Source: Aeromicrobium marinum DSM 15272 (GTDB taxonomy: Bacteria > Actinomycetota > Actinomycetes > Propionibacteriales > Nocardioidaceae). From it: DNA of 64,000 bases. Below, piece after piece: positions 3,240 through 36,095 of this stretch. The stretch's first letter is position 1, and every line of letters begins with the position of its first letter. The notes below the pieces were generated by a model. The model saw nothing but the letters and a program-made list of their open reading frames with translations, had not been told where the DNA came from and made no database searches. The translations under genes were made by a program, and so were the position numbers. The DNA is taken from contig NZ_CM001024.1 of assembly GCF_000160775.2 (NCBI RefSeq), forward strand, positions 1,613,712 to 1,677,711, written 5' to 3'.

Positions 3240-4838
3240 ATCAGCACTGCACCCACGACCCGCTCGGTCGGCGACGAAGCGGCTCGCAGACGGACCTTCG
3301 CGATCATCTCGCACCCCGACGCGGGCAAGTCGACCATGACCGAGGCCCTGGCCCTGCACGCCCGGGCCATCGGCGAGGCCGGGGTCACCCACGGCAAGGC
3401 CGGTCGGCGCGCGACGGTGTCGGACTGGATGGACATGGAGCAGGAGCGCGGCATCTCGATCGCGTCCACGGCGCTGCAGTTCGAGTACCGCGACCACATC
3501 GTGAACCTGGTCGACACCCCCGGTCACGCCGACTTCAGCGAGGACACGTACCGGGTGCTGTCGGCGGTCGACTTCGCGGTGATGATCCTGGACGCGGCGA
3601 AAGGGCTGGAGCCGCAGACCCTGAAGCTGTTCAACGTGTGCCACCGCAGTGGCATCCCGGTGATCACGGTCGTCAACAAGTGGGACCGGCCCGGCATGGA
3701 CCCGTTGGAGCTGCTCGACGAGATCGAGCAACGCATCAAGATCGTCCCCACCCCCGTCACGTGGCCGATCGGGATCGCCGGGGAGTTCCACGGCGTCATC
3801 GACCGGCGCCGCGACACCGCCGTGGCGTACACCCGGACCGCGGGCGGGGCCACGCGGGCGGGCGAGGACGACCTCACCGCCGACGAGGCCGCGCAGCGCT
3901 TCGGCGTCGACCACGCCGACGCGCTCGAGGGGGTCGAGCTGCTGGAGAGCGGCGGCCACACCCACGACCACGACCGGTTCCTCGCCGGCGAGACCACTCC
4001 CGTGCTCTTCACCTCCGGAGCCCTCAACCTCGGTGTCCATCCGCTCCTCGACTGCATCGTCGAGCTCGGACCGGCGCCCCGACCCCGGCCCGCCGTCGGC
4101 GGTGGACGCCGTGAGGTCGACGACGACTTCAGTGCCGTCGTGTTCAAGGTCCAGGCGGGCATGGACAGCAACCACCGCGACCACGTCGCCTTCGCCCGGG
4201 TCTGCTCCGGGGTGTTCGAGCGCGGCGTGGTCGTCACCCACGCGCAGTCAGGGCGACCGTTCGCCACCAAGTACGCCCTCAGCATGTTCGGACGCGACCG
4301 CGAGACGGCCGACCAGGCCTACCCCGGCGACGTCATCGGCCTGGTCAACGCCTCCCACCTGGCCATCGGCGACACCCTGCACGCGGGCGACCCGGTCACC
4401 TTCCCGCCGATCCCGAAGTTCGCGCCGGAGCACTTCGCCGTCATCAGCGCCCGCGACCCCTCCCGCTACAAGCAGTTCCGGCGCGGCATCGAGCACCTCG
4501 ACCGCGAGGGGGTCGTGCAGGTGCTGCGCTCCCCCGCCCGTGGCGACCAGGCGCCGGTGCTGGCGGCGGTCGGCCCGATGCAGTTCGAGGTGGTCACCCA
4601 CCGGCTGTTGCGGGAGTTCTCCACCGAGACGCGACTGGACCACCTGCCCTACACGATGGCGCGCAGCTTCGACCCGACGTTCCGGGAGGACCTCGCCGGC
4701 CATCGCGGCGCCGAGACGTTCACCCGCAGCGACGGCACCGACCTGATCCTGTTCACGGACCGGTGGAGGATGCAGTCGATCGCCCGCGAGGTGCCCCACG
4801 CGACGTTGGAGACGCTGGCCGCGGACGCGGACGCCTGA
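3240..4838 (+). CDS. prfC: peptide chain release factor 3, apparently ATC start
   Basis: RF3 is the GTPase that removes RF1/RF2 from the ribosome after termination. Starting at 3240 the protein is 532 residues, the normal RF3 length. The P-loop HPDAGKST is at 25-32, then RGISIAST (switch I), DTPGHADF (switch II) and NKWD (guanine specificity), then the RF3 carboxyl domains. The first ATG in frame (3336) lies after the P-loop and cannot be the start. Between the in-frame stop at 3204 and 3336 there is no ATG, GTG or TTG. The codon at the expected initiator position is ATC, with GGAG 6 bases upstream (3230-3233). The alternative is a base error at 3242. Confidence 0.93.
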   Translation: MSTAPTTRSVGDEAARRRTFAIISHPDAGKSTMTEALALHARAIGEAGVTHGKAGRRATVSDWMDMEQERGISIASTALQFEYRDHIVNLVDTPGHADFSEDTYRVLSAVDFAVMILDAAKGLEPQTLKLFNVCHRSGIPVITVVNKWDRPGMDPLELLDEIEQRIKIVPTPVTWPIGIAGEFHGVIDRRRDTAVAYTRTAGGATRAGEDDLTADEAAQRFGVDHADALEGVELLESGGHTHDHDRFLAGETTPVLFTSGALNLGVHPLLDCIVELGPAPRPRPAVGGGRREVDDDFSAVVFKVQAGMDSNHRDHVAFARVCSGVFERGVVVTHAQSGRPFATKYALSMFGRDRETADQAYPGDVIGLVNASHLAIGDTLHAGDPVTFPPIPKFAPEHFAVISARDPSRYKQFRRGIEHLDREGVVQVLRSPARGDQAPVLAAVGPMQFEVVTHRLLREFSTETRLDHLPYTMARSFDPTFREDLAGHRGAETFTRSDGTDLILFTDRWRMQSIAREVPHATLETLAADADA

Positions 4839-4849
4839 CCGACGCGCGA

Positions 4850-5656
4850 TCAGGCCGTGCGGTCGAGCGGATCGCGCGAGAACCACGCGAGGCCCAGGTC
4901 CGGACCGAGGCTGGTCTCCCTCACCAGTTCCAGGCCGGCCGACTCCAGGTGGGTCCGCAGCTCGCCGAAGTGGTGGTCCGGCGACGGGTGGAACTCCAGG
5001 ACGAAGCGGCGGACCGGCGCCAGCAGGCCCGGGTCGGTGCCGAGCAGGATGTCGTACTCGGCCCCTTCGGCGTCGAGCTTGACCAGGTCGACCGTGTCGC
5101 CGGCGTCGGCCATGACCTCGACGAAGCTGCGCGCCGCGACCTCGATGGTCGTGCTGCCGGCCTGTCCCAGGTAGAGGACGCCGTTGTGCGCCCGCCCGGG
5201 CCCGTTGTCGGCCATGCGGAACGACCCGGTGCGAGCCGCGACCGCCATCCGGTGCACGGTGACGCGCTCGGCGAGCCCGTTGGTCTCGACGTTGCCGACG
5301 GTGTACTCCCCCGTCGACGGCGTGGGCTCGTACGACGCCACCGAGCCACCGGGGAACCGACGGGCGAAGGCCATCGCGAAGCACCCGACGTGGGCACCGA
5401 TGTCGACCGCGACGGCATCGGACCGCAGGTCGCCGGTGAACCACTCGAACGCGTACTCGTCCTCGACGAACACCTCGAGCACGGGGCCCCAGGCGGCCGG
5501 TGAGTTCAGGGTGCGGACGCGCAGACCGTCGACCTCGAACACCACGTCCTGCCGCCGGGTCGCGATGGACCACAGGATGGCCCACGGGTTGTCGAAGTGC
5601 GTGAACACCTGACGGACCCGCAGCACGAGCTGACGGACGACGAACGTGACGGACAT
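4850..5656 (-). CDS. FkbM family methyltransferase
   Basis: A 268-residue SAM-dependent O-methyltransferase of the FkbM type. Motif I VDIGAHVG is at residues 84-91, followed by the acidic post-I loop (SYEPTPS) and the FkbM segment VKLDAEGAEYDILLG. The family methylates sugars, lipids or polyketide-like acceptors; nothing nearby reveals the acceptor. The ATG at 5656 has a strong AAGGGGGT site upstream. It follows a tRNA gene on the same strand and converges with prfC, with 11 bases between stop codons. Confidence 0.87.
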   Translation of the reverse strand: MSVTFVVRQLVLRVRQVFTHFDNPWAILWSIATRRQDVVFEVDGLRVRTLNSPAAWGPVLEVFVEDEYAFEWFTGDLRSDAVAVDIGAHVGCFAMAFARRFPGGSVASYEPTPSTGEYTVGNVETNGLAERVTVHRMAVAARTGSFRMADNGPGRAHNGVLYLGQAGSTTIEVAARSFVEVMADAGDTVDLVKLDAEGAEYDILLGTDPGLLAPVRRFVLEFHPSPDHHFGELRTHLESAGLELVRETSLGPDLGLAWFSRDPLDRTA

Positions 5657-5679
5657 ACCAACCCCCTTGGCACCGGTGG

Positions 5680-5703
5680 TCCCGCCGGATGCTCGAGGCG
5701 GGA
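5680..5703 (-). terminator. stem-loop downstream of the CAU tRNA
   Basis: TCCCGCC (5680-5686) pairs with GGCGGGA (5697-5703) around a 10-base loop. On the minus strand it lies about 50 bases after the tRNA 3' end and before the FkbM start, so it could end the tRNA transcript. There is no clear T-run, hence modest confidence. Confidence 0.4.
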
Positions 5704-5750
5704 TCCGGCCACTGTACGGGAGGGCTGGTGCGCGACGGGGGAACCACCAC

Positions 5751-5827
5751 TGGTGGGGAGGGTGGGGCTCGAACCCACGACCCAGGGATTATGAGTCCCC
5801 TGCTCTGACCGGCTGAGCTACCTCCCC
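5751..5827 (-). tRNA. tRNA with CAU anticodon (elongator Met or Ile2)
   Basis: A full cloverleaf: acceptor GGGGAGG pairs with CCTCCCC, D-arm GCTCAGCCGGTCAGAGC, anticodon arm with loop CTCATAA (anticodon CAT), T-arm GTGGGTTCGAGCCCCAC, and an encoded CCA at 5751-5753. CAU can be elongator Met or, after lysidine modification of C34, the minor Ile tRNA. I cannot separate these with certainty. It is not an initiator: the first acceptor pair is a normal G-C. Confidence 0.93.
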
Positions 5828-5847
5828 GGAGCCGCTAGCGTAGCGAC

Positions 5848-6588
5848 ATGGAACCCTCTCCCCTGGAGCACGTCGACGAGAACTGGCAGCGCGCCCTCGT
5901 GGTGGTCGCGCACCCCGACGACGTCGAGTTCGGTGCTGCCGCCGCCGTCGCCCGCTGGACCGGGCAGGGCAAGGAGGTCGTGTACTGCATGGTCACCAGC
6001 GGGGAAGCAGGGATCGACGCGATGCACCCCGACGAGGCCCGTCGGGTCCGCGAGGCCGAGGAGATCGAGTCGGCCCGCATCGTGGGGGTCGACGTGGTGG
6101 AGTTCCTCGGCCTGCCCGACGGCATCGTGGAGTACGGGGTGCCGCTGAGGCGGGAGATCTGTGCCGTCATCCGGCGGCACCGTCCCGAGATCCTGGTGAC
6201 CGGCAACTTCCACGACACGTGGGGCGGCTCCACACCGAACCAGCCCGACCACATCGCCGTGGGTCGGGCGACCCTGGACGCGGCCGGCGACGCGGGCAAC
6301 CGGTGGATCTTCACCGAACAGCTCACCGACGGACTGCAGCCCTGGGGCGACGTCCGGCAGGTCTGGGCGGCCGGCTCACCGCAGGCCGGACACGCGGCCG
6401 ACATCACGGACACCTTCGACCGGGGGGTCGCGTCGCTCGAGGCGCACCGCGCCTACATCGACGGACTGGGGTGGGAGAACTTCGATCCCGCCGAGATGCT
6501 GGAGGGTCAGTCGCGGCCGGCCGGGTCCCGGCTCGGGGTCACCCATGCCACCACCTTCGAGGTCCACAGCCGCACGTGGGGCGATTGA
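5848..6588 (+). CDS. PIG-L family deacetylase
   Basis: A 246-residue zinc hydrolase of the LmbE/MshB/PIG-L family, which removes acetyl groups from N-acetylglucosamine conjugates. The metal and catalytic motif AHPDDVEFG is at residues 21-29 (His22, Asp24, Asp25), and the third metal ligand is probably His in NQPDHIAVGR. Actinobacteria use relatives in mycothiol synthesis (MshB) and recycling (Mca), but the sequence here looks like a general family member. The start 21 bases after the divergent tRNA leaves little leader, so translation may be leaderless. Confidence 0.87.
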   Translation: MEPSPLEHVDENWQRALVVVAHPDDVEFGAAAAVARWTGQGKEVVYCMVTSGEAGIDAMHPDEARRVREAEEIESARIVGVDVVEFLGLPDGIVEYGVPLRREICAVIRRHRPEILVTGNFHDTWGGSTPNQPDHIAVGRATLDAAGDAGNRWIFTEQLTDGLQPWGDVRQVWAAGSPQAGHAADITDTFDRGVASLEAHRAYIDGLGWENFDPAEMLEGQSRPAGSRLGVTHATTFEVHSRTWGD

Positions 6589-6607
6589 GGCTGCGCCCGC
6601 CGCCGGT

Positions 6608-32720: not shown

Positions 32721-33410
32721 TCAGCCCGCCACCTCGGGGAGCCGGGCGGCCCCCACGACGGTGCCGTCGTCCAGCTCGATCCGCAGGGCGATCACGTCGT
32801 CCCGCAGCACGGCGGCGTTCATCCGGCAGTGGATGACGACGTCGGACCCCAGGAAGGCGCCGGCGGACACGTCGGCACCGGTCTCGTCGACGAAGACGAT
32901 CTCGTAGGTCTCCCCCGGCGCCAGCCCGCTCACGTCGATGATGGCCTCGGTGCCCCAGGTGTGGGCCACCACGGACGCCGTCAGGTCGACCCCCGCCGGA
33001 GCCCGGTCGAAGTCGACCACCTCGACGGCGCCCAGGGTCCCCGGCGGTCCGATCGGCGGCGCCTCACGGATGTCCTGGACGGCGAGCCCGCCGGCGGCAC
33101 CGGCCAGCAGGAGCACGGCAGCCGCGGTCGCGAGGAGGGCCGAGCGACGCCACCGGCCGGGTGCGGCGGCCTCGTCGCCCGACCGAACCCGTTCGGCGAT
33201 GCGGTCGGCAAGGTCGGGCCGGGGCAGCGACGGGTCCCAGTGGTCGAGCCCCCTCAGCTGCTCGACGACGCCTCGCAGCTCGTCCACCTCCTGCCACACG
33301 GTCGGGTCGGCGGCGGCCAGCAGCGCGAGCTCCTGCCGCTCGGACTCGGTCAGGTCGCCCGATGCCGCAGCGGCGATCAGGTCGTGGCGTCGGTCGCGGT
33401 CATCGGTCAT
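32721..33410 (-). CDS. anti-sigma factor, single-pass membrane protein
   Basis: A 229-residue protein. The first 80 residues form the cytoplasmic sigma-binding part, one transmembrane helix is at about 90-110 (SALLATAAAVLLLAGAAGGL), and the carboxyl domain outside the membrane resembles the RskA-type anti-sigma-K domain (GTEAIIDVSGLAPGETYEIVFVD, then VIHCRMNAAVL). The HxxxCxxC zinc motif of many anti-sigma factors is absent. Its start overlaps the sigma gene by 11 bases, so the two are translated together. Confidence 0.82.
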   Translation of the reverse strand: MTDDRDRRHDLIAAAASGDLTESERQELALLAAADPTVWQEVDELRGVVEQLRGLDHWDPSLPRPDLADRIAERVRSGDEAAAPGRWRRSALLATAAAVLLLAGAAGGLAVQDIREAPPIGPPGTLGAVEVVDFDRAPAGVDLTASVVAHTWGTEAIIDVSGLAPGETYEIVFVDETGADVSAGAFLGSDVVIHCRMNAAVLRDDVIALRIELDDGTVVGAARLPEVAG

Positions 33411-33924
33411 CGTCGTCCTCCTCCTGAAGGTGGGTGCGCAGGGCGCGCAGTGCGTGGAACATGCGGGTCCGCAGGGTGGCGACCGGGACCCCGGTGCGGT
33501 CGCTGACGTCCTGGTAGGACGCGCCGCCGATCGTGACGGCCACGACGACCTCGCGGTGGGCGTCGGTCAGCCGGGCCAGGGCCTCGACGAGCGCCAACCG
33601 GTCGACCGCCTGCTCCATCGGCCGGCCATCGTGCTCCACCGGGTCCCCCGCCCGCACGACCAAGGCGGTCCGGCGGTCACGGGACCGGATCAGGTCGACC
33701 AGGACCCGACGGGCGATGGTGAACAACCAGGTGCGCTCGCTGCCGCGTCGTTCGTCGAAGCGCTCGCGGTGACGCCAGGCGCGCACGAACGTCTCCTGCA
33801 GGCACTCCTCGGCCAAGGACCGGTCACGCACCGCATTGACGGCGAAACCGAAGATGGCCGGGCCGTGGTCGCGGTAGGCGCGCGCGACGTCGAAGGTCCG
33901 CGGGTCACGCGCCATCGTCGACAT
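33400..33924 (-). CDS. ECF sigma factor
   Basis: A 174-residue sigma factor from the ATG at 33924. Region 2 is RDHGPAIFGFAVNAVRDRSLAEECLQETFVRAWRHRERF and region 4 contains REVVVAVTIGGASYQDVSDRTGVPVATLRTRMFHALRAL. A longer form from ATG 34020 would add 32 Arg-rich residues; a predicted promoter (34027-34054) would put the transcript start at about that ATG, making a leaderless longer product possible. It pairs with the anti-sigma gene and faces the CHRD-sortase operon. Confidence 0.88.
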   Translation of the reverse strand: MSTMARDPRTFDVARAYRDHGPAIFGFAVNAVRDRSLAEECLQETFVRAWRHRERFDERRGSERTWLFTIARRVLVDLIRSRDRRTALVVRAGDPVEHDGRPMEQAVDRLALVEALARLTDAHREVVVAVTIGGASYQDVSDRTGVPVATLRTRMFHALRALRTHLQEEDDDDR

Positions 33925-34026
33925 CGCCTCCCGCGATCGGCCGGACCGCCGTCCGCGGTCGCGCTCCAGTGTCGCCCCGACGCGGCCGGGCGACAAGGCG
34001 AACGCCACGGTCGAGGTCATGCAAGG

Positions 34027-34054
34027 GGTACGCCGGACCGGCCGTGTGCGTTCA
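34027..34054 (-). promoter_or_regulatory. predicted ECF promoter of the sigma/anti-sigma operon
   Basis: Read on the minus strand: TGAAC (34054-34050), exactly 17 bases, CGTACC (34032-34027). The same pattern with the same spacing occurs on the plus strand at 34112-34139. The predicted start is near 34020. Confidence 0.6.
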
Positions 34055-34110
34055 TCACGACCGTCGACGGGCGGCCACCGAGCGGACCCGCGAAAGAAGT
34101 GTGACGATCG

Positions 34111-34139
34111 GTGAACGAGTGCGCGCCGTGAGGCGTATC
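34111..34139 (+). promoter_or_regulatory. predicted ECF promoter of the CHRD-sortase operon
   Basis: GTGAAC (34111-34116), 17 bases, CGTATC (34134-34139). The start would be near 34146, giving a 40-base leader before the CHRD gene with its GAAGGGAA site. It matches the promoter of the neighbouring sigma gene in both elements and spacing. Confidence 0.62.
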
Positions 34140-34185
34140 ACTCTCGGAAAGACGCCCTCAGGCGCCATCTCTCGAAGGGAATCTC

Positions 34186-34947
34186 ATGACCAGCAAGCGA
34201 TCGACCCGACTGGCCGGCGCGGCTTCACTCGCCGCCGTCAGCCCCCTGATCCTGACCGCCCTGGCCGCCCCGGCCAACGCCGACACCCCGGACCAGGTCG
34301 AGCGTCCGGCCACCTTCACGAGTGCGTTCATCGCCAACGGAACCCCCGACCAGGTCTTCATGGGCTCGGAGCCGGCGCCCGGCCAGCCCGGTGCGACCGG
34401 CACGTTCAAGTTCCTGATCAACACGGACCTGGACGTCATCTGCTGGGACATGACGACCAACGGCGTCGACAACGACTTCGTCGGCGCGAGCCCGGCCAAG
34501 ACCGCCAACCACCTGCACGATGCCCCTGCCGGAATGCAGGGCCCGCCGCGTATTGCCTTCCCCGACCTCACGGGTGACGGCGACACCTTGACCTCCAGCG
34601 GCTGCTCTGCCGGACCGTTCACCACCCACGCGCCCGGGAACCCCAACGAAGCCGGCAGTTCGACCGGCTTCGAACTCTCGGACATCGAAGAGGATCCGAG
34701 CGGCTACTACGCCAACATCCACACCAACGACTTCCGCCCCGGAGCCGTCCGCGGCCAGTTGGTGGCCGACCCGGCCGGACTGGCCGCCGCCAACGCGCAG
34801 CCCGCCACCCCGGCCCCGTCCGGTGGCGTCCGAACGGGTGAGGGCGGAGCTGCCTCCACCCTGCCCATGGGTCTGCTCGCTGCTGCCGCCGTCGCCGGTC
34901 TCGGCGTCACCGGCGCCGTCGCCCTGCGTCGTCGTCAGGGTGCCTGA
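34186..34947 (+). CDS. CHRD-domain surface protein with C-terminal sorting signal
   Basis: A 253-residue secreted protein. The signal peptide is residues 1-32 (cleavage after ANA). A CHRD-type domain covers about 40-190 (FLINTDLDVICWDMTT, NHLHDAPAGMQGPP, YYANIHTNDFRPGAVRGQL), with the HLH-A and GxxRGQ patterns of the family and two Cys probably disulfide-linked. The tail is a sorting signal: VRTGEGG at 215-221, a hydrophobic helix at 226-247 and RRR at 248-250. The next gene is a sortase, overlapping by 8 bases. The role of bacterial CHRD proteins is not established. Confidence 0.85.
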   Translation: MTSKRSTRLAGAASLAAVSPLILTALAAPANADTPDQVERPATFTSAFIANGTPDQVFMGSEPAPGQPGATGTFKFLINTDLDVICWDMTTNGVDNDFVGASPAKTANHLHDAPAGMQGPPRIAFPDLTGDGDTLTSSGCSAGPFTTHAPGNPNEAGSSTGFELSDIEEDPSGYYANIHTNDFRPGAVRGQLVADPAGLAAANAQPATPAPSGGVRTGEGGAASTLPMGLLAAAAVAGLGVTGAVALRRRQGA

Positions 34948-35533
34948 GCTCCCACGGCTCGCTGGACTCGTCCTGCTCGCCGCACTCCTCACGGGGTGCG
35001 GCGGGCAGGACGTCGTCGTGTCGCCGTCACCTCCTGCAGCCCCCTCGGCAGAACCGTCCCCGGCCGCTGCCGAGCCGCCGGCCGCCCCCGCCGACCCCGC
35101 ACGGGTCGTCGTGCCGTCGATCGGCATCGACGAGGAGCTGATCGACCTCGGGATCGATGCCAGCAACGGCGAGCTGGAGGTGCCTCAGGACTACGACCGG
35201 GTCGGCTGGTTCACCGGAGGCGGACGCCCCGGCGACTTCCTGCCTACCGTGATGGCCGGACACGTGGACTCCCGCACCGGACCGGCCGTCTTCGCGCGAC
35301 TGGCCGAGGTGCAGGTCGGTGAACAGGTCACGGTGTTCGACGAGCGCGGCACCGAGTTCACCTACGTGGTCTACGAGGTGAAGGACGTGCCGCAGGACGC
35401 CAACTTCCCGACCGACGAGGTCTACGGCGCGGCCCTGGCCGACGAGATCCGCCTCATCACCTGCATCGGGGACTACGACCGGTCGATCGGTCGCTACACC
35501 GAGAACCGCGTCGTCTTCGCCAAGGCCGTCTGA
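34940..35533 (+). CDS. class F-type sortase
   Basis: A 197-residue sortase. The amino end has a hydrophobic helix ending LLTGC (residues 16-20), which is a lipobox, so it may be a lipoprotein. A Pro/Ala linker follows, then the catalytic domain from about residue 55. His108 (AGHVD), Cys175 (RLITC) and Arg190 (ENR) form the sortase triad. It very likely anchors the preceding CHRD protein. GTG at 34940 overlaps the CHRD stop. Confidence 0.88.
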   Translation: MPELPRLAGLVLLAALLTGCGGQDVVVSPSPPAAPSAEPSPAAAEPPAAPADPARVVVPSIGIDEELIDLGIDASNGELEVPQDYDRVGWFTGGGRPGDFLPTVMAGHVDSRTGPAVFARLAEVQVGEQVTVFDERGTEFTYVVYEVKDVPQDANFPTDEVYGAALADEIRLITCIGDYDRSIGRYTENRVVFAKAV

Positions 35534-35541
35534 CCCGCTGA

Positions 35542-35623
35542 TTCCCAGGAAATCCCAGAAAACTGGCACTTCACCCCGGTTGCAACCTGTGCCCGGTGTC
35601 AGTTTTCTGGGATTTCCTGGGAA
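35542..35623. repeat. 28-bp hairpin in the sortase/ogt convergent gap
   Basis: Left arm 35542-35569 pairs with right arm 35596-35623 over 28 bp with one G-U wobble. Both arms are AT-rich for this genome and contain CCCAGGAAATCCCAGAAAAC or its complement. The 26-base loop contains the perfect palindrome GGTTGCAACC. It begins 8 bases after the sortase stop and ends 10 bases before the ogt stop, so it could terminate both transcripts. Confidence 0.8.
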
Positions 35624-35633
35624 ACCTTCCGGG

Positions 35634-36095
35634 TCAGAAGAGACCGGGTTGTTCGAGGGAGAGCAGGATCCGCTTGCGCTCGACACCGCCGGCGTAGCCC
35701 GTGAGCGTGCCGTCCGCCCCGATGACGCGGTGACACGGCACCACGACCGGCAGCGGATTGGCTCCGTTGGCGGCGCCGACGGCCCGCGAGATGCCCGCCG
35801 TGTAGCCGAGTCTCCGGGCGATCTCGCCGTAGGTGGCGGTCTGCCCGTACCCGATGGTCTGCAGCTCGCTCCAGACCTTGCGCTGGAACTCCGTGCCGTC
35901 CTGCGCCAGCGGCAGGTCGAACCCCGTCCGCTCCCCCGCGAAGTACTCCGTGAGCTGGCGCTCCGCGTCGTCCAGGACCGGGTCGGCCACCGGGACCCCT
36001 CGCGGCGTGGCGTCGAAGTCGATCGCGGTCAGCAGGCCGGCCGAGACGTGCAGGCGCAGCCCGCCGATCGGGGTGTCGATGAACCGGGTCCTCAT
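35634..36095 (-). CDS. ogt: methylated-DNA--protein-cysteine methyltransferase
   Basis: A 153-residue suicide repair protein that takes methyl groups from O6-methylguanine. The acceptor Cys is in the canonical [14 protein letters not shown], preceded by the helix-turn-helix [14 protein letters not shown]. The start ATG overlaps the stop of the Ada-AlkA gene by 4 bases (ATGA), so alkylation sensing, base excision and direct reversal are one operon. Confidence 0.97.

Follow-up and report, generated by a model that had tools for sequence, protein, structure and literature searches.

Paired divergent promoter-like elements point to an autoregulated ECF sigma factor module with a CHRD protein and a class F-like sortase in Aeromicrobium marinum

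Introduction

Between a gene for an ECF sigma factor and a divergently oriented operon for a CHRD-domain protein and a sortase, Aeromicrobium marinum DSM 15272 carries two promoter-like elements that face in opposite directions. Does the sigma factor read both of them, and does its reach extend further? An earlier note on this DNA had answered the first part with yes, proposing an ECF sigma factor that drives itself together with a surface protein and its sortase. Here we follow up that proposal in the window, by which we mean the whole stretch of DNA analysed (64,000 nucleotides, numbered from its first letter), in the complete genome and in related genomes of the genus, family, order and class. 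We found no paper that joins an ECF sigma factor, an anti-sigma factor, a CHRD protein and a sortase; the subscription literature lay mostly outside the search, so this absence is weak evidence.

Results

Two divergent elements and the genes around them

The features of the locus are as follows.

32721-33410, minus strand: anti-sigma-like gene, overlapping the end of the sigma gene (RskA_C, PF10099, 22.7 bits, cut-off 29.4; NCBIfam anti-sigma model NF052375, 38.9 bits, cut-off 100; both below cut-off)
33400-34020, minus strand: ECF sigma factor gene, 206 amino acids from the ATG at 34020 (Sigma70_r2, 2.8e-19; Sigma70_r4_2, 2.7e-9)
34027-34054, minus strand: predicted sigma-side promoter
34112-34139, plus strand: predicted CHRD-side promoter
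34146-34169, plus strand: predicted 5' region of the CHRD mRNA, starting at the ninth nucleotide past CGTA and including a small stem-loop (34153-34164; folding against shuffles)
34186-34947, plus strand: secreted CHRD-domain protein, 253 amino acids (PF07452, 1.1e-16)
34940-35533, plus strand: class F-like sortase (PF04203, 2.1e-18; NF033748, 143.7 bits, cut-off 166)

Both elements lie where the earlier note had placed them. On the minus strand, TGAAC (34054-34050) is followed after 17 nt by CGTACC (34032-34027), giving a -35 box TGAACG at 34054-34049 and a -10 box CGTA at 34032-34029, then CCCC. On the plus strand, TGAAC (34112-34116) is followed after 17 nt by CGTATC (34134-34139), giving TGAACG at 34112-34117 and CGTA at 34134-34137, then TCAC. 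The spacers had been described as identical, which holds for their length; their sequences differ.

The exact element TGAAC-N17-CGTA occurs twice in the 64-kb window, compared with a mean of 0.05 in 100 shuffles, none of which held two or more. The genome-wide motif search that had been proposed as a check recovered the same two sites and no third: there are two exact matches in 3,079,740 bases, both at the divergent pair. Each of 20 genomes searched for the exact element holds between two and 14 copies (fourteen in G024), and the other nine module genomes among these 20 hold three to nine each, module sites included. The element is thus not rare by itself, and the evidence lies in its position and conservation rather than in general rarity. 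Scans of 33400-35700 for sigma-70 promoters and terminators found none. Between the two -35 boxes, at 34090-34101, lies an A-rich patch, GAAAGAAG; such a patch is also present in the same region of several family-level modules and is possibly a shared upstream element.

The identities given earlier to the flanking genes as ECF sigma factor, CHRD protein and sortase agree with the Pfam results. The sigma factor has the make-up of an ECF (group IV) protein, the only Pfam models that it matches being those for Sigma70 regions 2 and 4. Among solved sigma factors, M. tuberculosis SigL is the most similar (1.9e-22, residues 47-200) and SigK the second (2.6e-19). The best curated model, NF007227/PRK09645, which we take to be the SigL model, gives 136.9 bits and so falls below its cut-off of 202. 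The genome encodes nine matches to this sigma factor, itself included. A scan of genome contigs with the sigma protein returned only four remote loci, which were left aside.

Distribution of the module

Within the genus, a CHRD domain was found in 5 of 49 genomes, and all five carry the whole module. The family sample gave a CHRD match in 43 of 245 genomes, at 49 listed places: 40 were fetched, five came from the genus and one lay inside a fetched stretch (L118), those left out being G363, G402 and the second G318 place. Sigma factor, anti-sigma factor, CHRD protein and sortase occur together at ten loci of this family-level set, the window included. When 393 genomes of the class were searched with a profile of the ten module CHRD proteins, 31 gave a match at 1e-8 or better. 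These fell into two clear groups, with 13 matches at 2e-64 or below and the rest at 4e-14 or above. Six of the 13 strong matches were already in hand, and the seven new loci, which come from other families, served as a fresh test; G019, G385, G386 and G404 are missing from the profile matches, presumably because they were not drawn into the sample. Altogether, 15 loci have sigma followed by anti-sigma, with CHRD and sortase divergent from them; of these, L034/L084 and L105/L106 are near-duplicates. The CHRD-side element is present at L137, where a sortase match is lacking and the closest sigma-like gene is non-divergent. At L139, of the same CHRD type, neither the element (400 bases scanned upstream) nor a sigma match (in 5.5 kb) was found.

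Protein features shared by the modules

The anti-sigma-like gene lies adjacent to or overlapping the downstream end of the sigma gene in the modules. Its product in the window consists of a helical N-terminal part, one hydrophobic stretch and a C-terminal domain with HTWGTE...C..N; by alignment, the module proteins have in common a C-terminal domain with HTWG(T)E, a single conserved cysteine and an asparagine that hardly varies, and the HxxxCxxC zinc motif is absent from all ten family-level members. When 11 anti-sigma proteins were scanned, the outgroup L037 among them, zf-HC2 matched one, and RskA_C matched the window member only, below the cut-off, and none of the other ten.

The CHRD protein of the window ends in a sorting-type signal, GGVRTGEGG, followed by a hydrophobic stretch and RRR. 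It scores 22.1 bits against the GVDTG_CTERM model (NF058571), under the cut-off of 29; at E of 0.1 or below, the family-level module proteins match this model in ten of ten cases (best 1.1e-9), and P-x-(G/N)-G-(V/I)-(D/R)-T-G, a hydrophobic stretch and arginines close all ten aligned sequences. The sortase gene starts with a GTG at 34940 that overlaps the stop codon of CHRD; for its product the class F model NF033748 is by far the best, although below its cut-off. The catalytic histidine, cysteine and arginine are invariant in the ten aligned module sortases, as is a lipobox cysteine. The lipobox reads LTGC in the window and L-x-G-C in all ten (window, L033-L035, L084, L085, L105, L106, L111 and L113), which suggests that this sortase may be anchored as a lipoprotein. 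Given the conserved sorting-type C-terminus of the CHRD proteins and the conserved histidine, cysteine, arginine and lipobox cysteine of the sortases, each in 10/10, the CHRD protein is likely anchored to the wall by the neighbouring sortase.

Conservation of both elements

On the CHRD side, the exact element is present at 16 of 17 loci of the window's CHRD type, that is, in the window, in 9/9 of the other family-level modules and in six of the seven fresh loci, the exception being L139. A control scan of the 500 bases before the CHRD domain at 44 loci found it in 9/9 modules compared with 1/35 other loci (Fisher p 1.4e-8, only a guide because the loci are related). On the sigma side, a site with the same 17-bp spacing faces the sigma gene in 15 of 15 divergent modules, with TGAAC exact in 13, CGTA in 14 and both in 12. 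AACG-N16-CGTA accounts for 14 of the 15 (12 with TGAAC, one with AGAAC and one with GAAAC); at L135, the remaining module, TGAACG is paired with GGTA at equal spacing. These counts, 16/17 and 15/15 at the module against 1/35 in the controls, support the earlier claim of an ECF sigma factor that drives itself and the CHRD-sortase operon.

The consensus common to both sides is TGAACG-N16-CGTA-NN-CC. AAC and CGT are complete in the alignment table by choice of rows, and the CHRD rows were picked for the whole exact element; the remaining positions were not imposed. The G after TGAAC is found in 16/16 CHRD rows and in the only candidate at 14 sigma loci with that base left free, and the two C residues after the -10 box in 13/16 and 15/16 of the CHRD rows and in 12/14 and 14/14 of the sigma rows. 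Conservation peaks at both boxes and at the CC past the -10, while most of the spacer is variable. Since neither the G nor the CC was imposed, the two promoters share more than the earlier note had seen.

Among the matches listed for this extended pattern, the five genus genomes with the module show eight perfect sites, each of them inside the module; the CHRD site of the window and the sigma site of G018 each miss it by one base. The four genus genomes without the module gave one perfect site among the matches listed, in G006. Allowing one mismatch, this genome holds 12 extended-pattern sites, the divergent pair included, compared with two for a reversed-pattern control, which leaves room for a wider, weaker regulon. 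The exact-site regulon predicted for this genome consists of the module's two promoters only.

Which reading fits best

We consider the locus an ECF sigma/anti-sigma module that regulates itself, with an exact-site regulon made up of its own operon, the CHRD protein and the class F-like sortase, and assign this reading, which we draw from sequence and conservation, a probability of about 0.86. A membrane-spanning anti-sigma factor would hold the sigma factor until an envelope signal frees it; the freed sigma factor would then bind TGAACG-N16-CGTA in both directions in the common intergenic region. Transcription of the sigma and anti-sigma operon would bring amplification and, later, damping, and transcription of the divergent operon would yield the secreted CHRD protein and the sortase that likely anchors it to the wall, from an mRNA with a predicted leader of about 40 nt that has a stem-loop at its start and a ribosome-binding site at its end.

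Both elements might be real promoters that are read by another ECF sigma factor, the adjacent one having other targets. The nine sigma matches mean that other ECF-type sigma factors are present besides the module's own, and AAC/CGT boxes are generic for ECF promoters according to the available text of PMC8103513. However, the element goes with the module sigma factor (9/9 family-level modules against 1/35 CHRD loci lacking the module), and no other sigma gene of the genome has an exact site upstream, because the genome's only two sites are the module pair; we regard this explanation as unlikely. It is more doubtful still that one site only is the promoter of the module sigma factor and the other resembles it by chance or shared ancestry: a -35/-10 pair of nine specified bases does turn up two to 14 times per genome in the 20 genomes, but the same spacing is kept on both sides in 15/15 divergent modules although the spacer sequence drifts. 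Least credible to us is that the pair represents operator half-sites for a DNA-binding regulator rather than promoters. Their opposite orientation within one intergenic region would suit such an arrangement, but the spacing is fixed at 17 bp, the boxes are of the ECF AAC/CGT type, start codons or leaders follow at a promoter-like distance, and the distance between the two sites varies among loci (offsets of 19 to 63).

A predicted leaderless sigma transcript

The start of the sigma gene lies close to its predicted promoter: the ATG at 34020 begins 8 nt after CGTA. In 9 of 15 modules the sigma reading frame has an ATG or GTG 8 nt (two loci) or 9 nt (seven loci) past CGTA; on the CHRD side none of 16 sites has a start codon at that distance (Fisher p 2.5e-4). 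The six modules without this geometry are L111, L113, L133, L134, L135 and L136. At L084 the start codon is GTG where its close relative L034 has ATG. For SigL, the accessible part of PMC6372665 reports that the best scaffolds were those in which 6 nt separate the -10 region from the downstream duplex, and that transcription started 2 nt upstream of that duplex; with the -10 box taken as -12 to -7, this geometry places the start at the ninth nucleotide after CGTA. The start so calculated falls on or beside the first base of the sigma start codon, and we predict that the sigma mRNA is leaderless. A scan for the leaderless-start pattern gave matches in 50 of 293 genomes of the order, including the modules of G000, G005, G019 and G060, and also just upstream of other sigma-like genes in G052 (contig 107) and G057.

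An alternative internal start lies at codon 36 (33915) in the window, with GGAGG upstream. All nine leaderless modules have an internal start behind a purine-rich stretch, leaving an extension of 8 to 48 residues; purine-rich stretches are common in G+C-rich genomes. The N-terminal extension is poorly conserved among modules. Between L034 and L084, there are no synonymous differences in the 28-codon extension, compared with 31 in 168 core codons, which for this one pair hints at a signal carried at the nucleotide level; the extension of L105/L106, at eight codons, is too short for such a comparison.

Because of the leaderless geometry, the internal starts and the L034/L084 extension, and by analogy with SigR/SigR', the module may produce two isoforms, an N-extended sigma factor from the leaderless autoregulated transcript and a short form from the internal start with its own ribosome-binding site. 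We offer this tentatively and think it rather less probable than its absence. A second promoter inside the extension would perhaps also serve the short form. L105 and L106 have TAGGGT within the first sigma codons, 7 nt before the internal ATG, which could act as a housekeeping -10 box and give the short sigma factor a second start, also leaderless. If two isoforms were made, this would be a feedback like that of SigR/SigR' in a different ECF group, controlling a wall-anchored protein.

The predicted leader of the CHRD transcript

In the ten family-level modules, 47-51 nt separate CGTA from the CHRD start codon. From the expected start, 16/16 CHRD leaders fold into a small stem-loop, with stem sequences that differ among clades. 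Shuffles of 14 leaders, a set that omits the duplicates L084 and L106, gave a mean z of -1.92 and a Fisher's combined p of 3.4e-8, uncorrected for kinship, with the window's stem-loop scoring weakest (z -0.81, p 0.165). RNAalifold found no consensus pairs on a MAFFT alignment of the ten leaders, so the claim rests on single-sequence shuffles, which are phylogenetically non-independent. As a secondary conclusion, the CHRD transcript probably opens with a stem-loop that is conserved as a shape while its sequence changes. A different fold of the leader from CGTA to ATG, which pairs a 5' C-run with the ribosome-binding site, was dropped as a likely artefact since the C-run is common to both promoters and the transcript probably starts downstream of it.

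Discussion

The module, as we read it, works like any autoregulated ECF sigma factor with a local target. The kind of switch is ordinary, and the target is unusually narrow and well defined.

SigL-RslA of M. tuberculosis is a close comparison, SigL being the closest solved sigma factor by sequence. RslA is a zinc anti-sigma factor, whereas the module anti-sigma factors lack HxxxCxxC; the targets differ as well. In keeping with autoregulation, the SigL holoenzyme reads P-sigL, the promoter that expresses sigL, and according to the available text of the same report SigL prefers CG just upstream of the T at -12, a feature shared by the module, with G at -11 in its -10 consensus (PMC6372665). Unlike the SigL-dependent T-12 G-11 described there, the module -10 box, CGTA, has A at -11 at both window sites. 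SigL Asp60, which sets the -11 G, faces Glu90 in the window sigma factor by a manual count on the alignment. Below the model cut-off and with a different -10 box, the window sigma factor is, by these comparisons, close to SigL yet distinct from it. The module thereby offers a clean natural promoter pair, TGAACG-N16-CGTA-NN-CC, for an ECF sigma factor near SigL.

SigK-RskA of M. tuberculosis, which controls MPT70/MPT83, likewise combines an ECF sigma factor with an anti-sigma factor lacking the zinc motif and with surface-protein targets. It differs in that RskA_C reaches only a sub-cut-off score in the window anti-sigma factor and in that the module target is a CHRD protein with a sortase. For Streptomyces coelicolor SigR/SigR', the available text of PMC4921905 describes an autoregulated upstream promoter that yields an N-terminally extended sigma factor. 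Similarly, the promoter that we take to be autoregulated in the module adjoins an in-frame start codon, and a further start lies inside the gene, a geometry that fits 9 of 15 modules; in contrast to SigR', the extension of the module sigma factor, at 8 to 48 residues, is predicted from sequence, and the anti-sigma factor is of membrane type rather than a redox RsrA. In systems of the SigR/SigR' type, the longer isoform is unstable.

A neighbouring system was recognised at L036 (G037, about 3955-6230) and L037 (G011, about 4311-6606), which have related sigma genes and zinc-type anti-sigma sequences. Their sigma genes face a different secreted protein, which we take to be DUF4394-like, and L037 also carries a divergent pair of TGAAC-N17-CGTA sites. 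With another secreted protein and zinc-type anti-sigma sequences, neither was counted as a module member.

The physiological roles of class F sortases are stated as still not known in a 2026 paper, and deletion of all four class F sortases of one species caused no phenotypic change, as far as the accessible part of that paper goes (PMC13251363). There, too, two class F genes are each noted beside a gene for a secreted protein whose C-terminus has a hydrophobic stretch and a basic tail, an arrangement like that of the module; unlike those described in the available text, the module has a model-matched sorting signal, a likely dedicated sigma factor and an N-terminal lipobox on the sortase. This genome has two further class F-like sortase matches. 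Five module-free sortase loci, one of them in this genome, gave no CHRD match, no GVDTG-type C-terminus (by simple pattern) and no exact TGAAC-N17-CGTA. In the module, a class F-like sortase is accompanied by a single probable substrate and by one sigma factor that lacks other exact sites in this genome, so the role of the sortase becomes approachable by releasing the sigma factor.

Downstream of the sortase gene, between it and the convergent gene for O6-methylguanine methyltransferase, lies a 78-bp inverted repeat with perfect 22-base arms (window 35544-35621, genome 1649255-1649332). Rfam gave six matches on 33300-35700, all below the gathering threshold, four of them on the inverted repeat and two in the sortase gene. 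Genome-wide, the arm has 19 matches with up to three mismatches, of which 14 are paired with starts 56 bases apart, which marks the repeat as a dispersed palindromic element.
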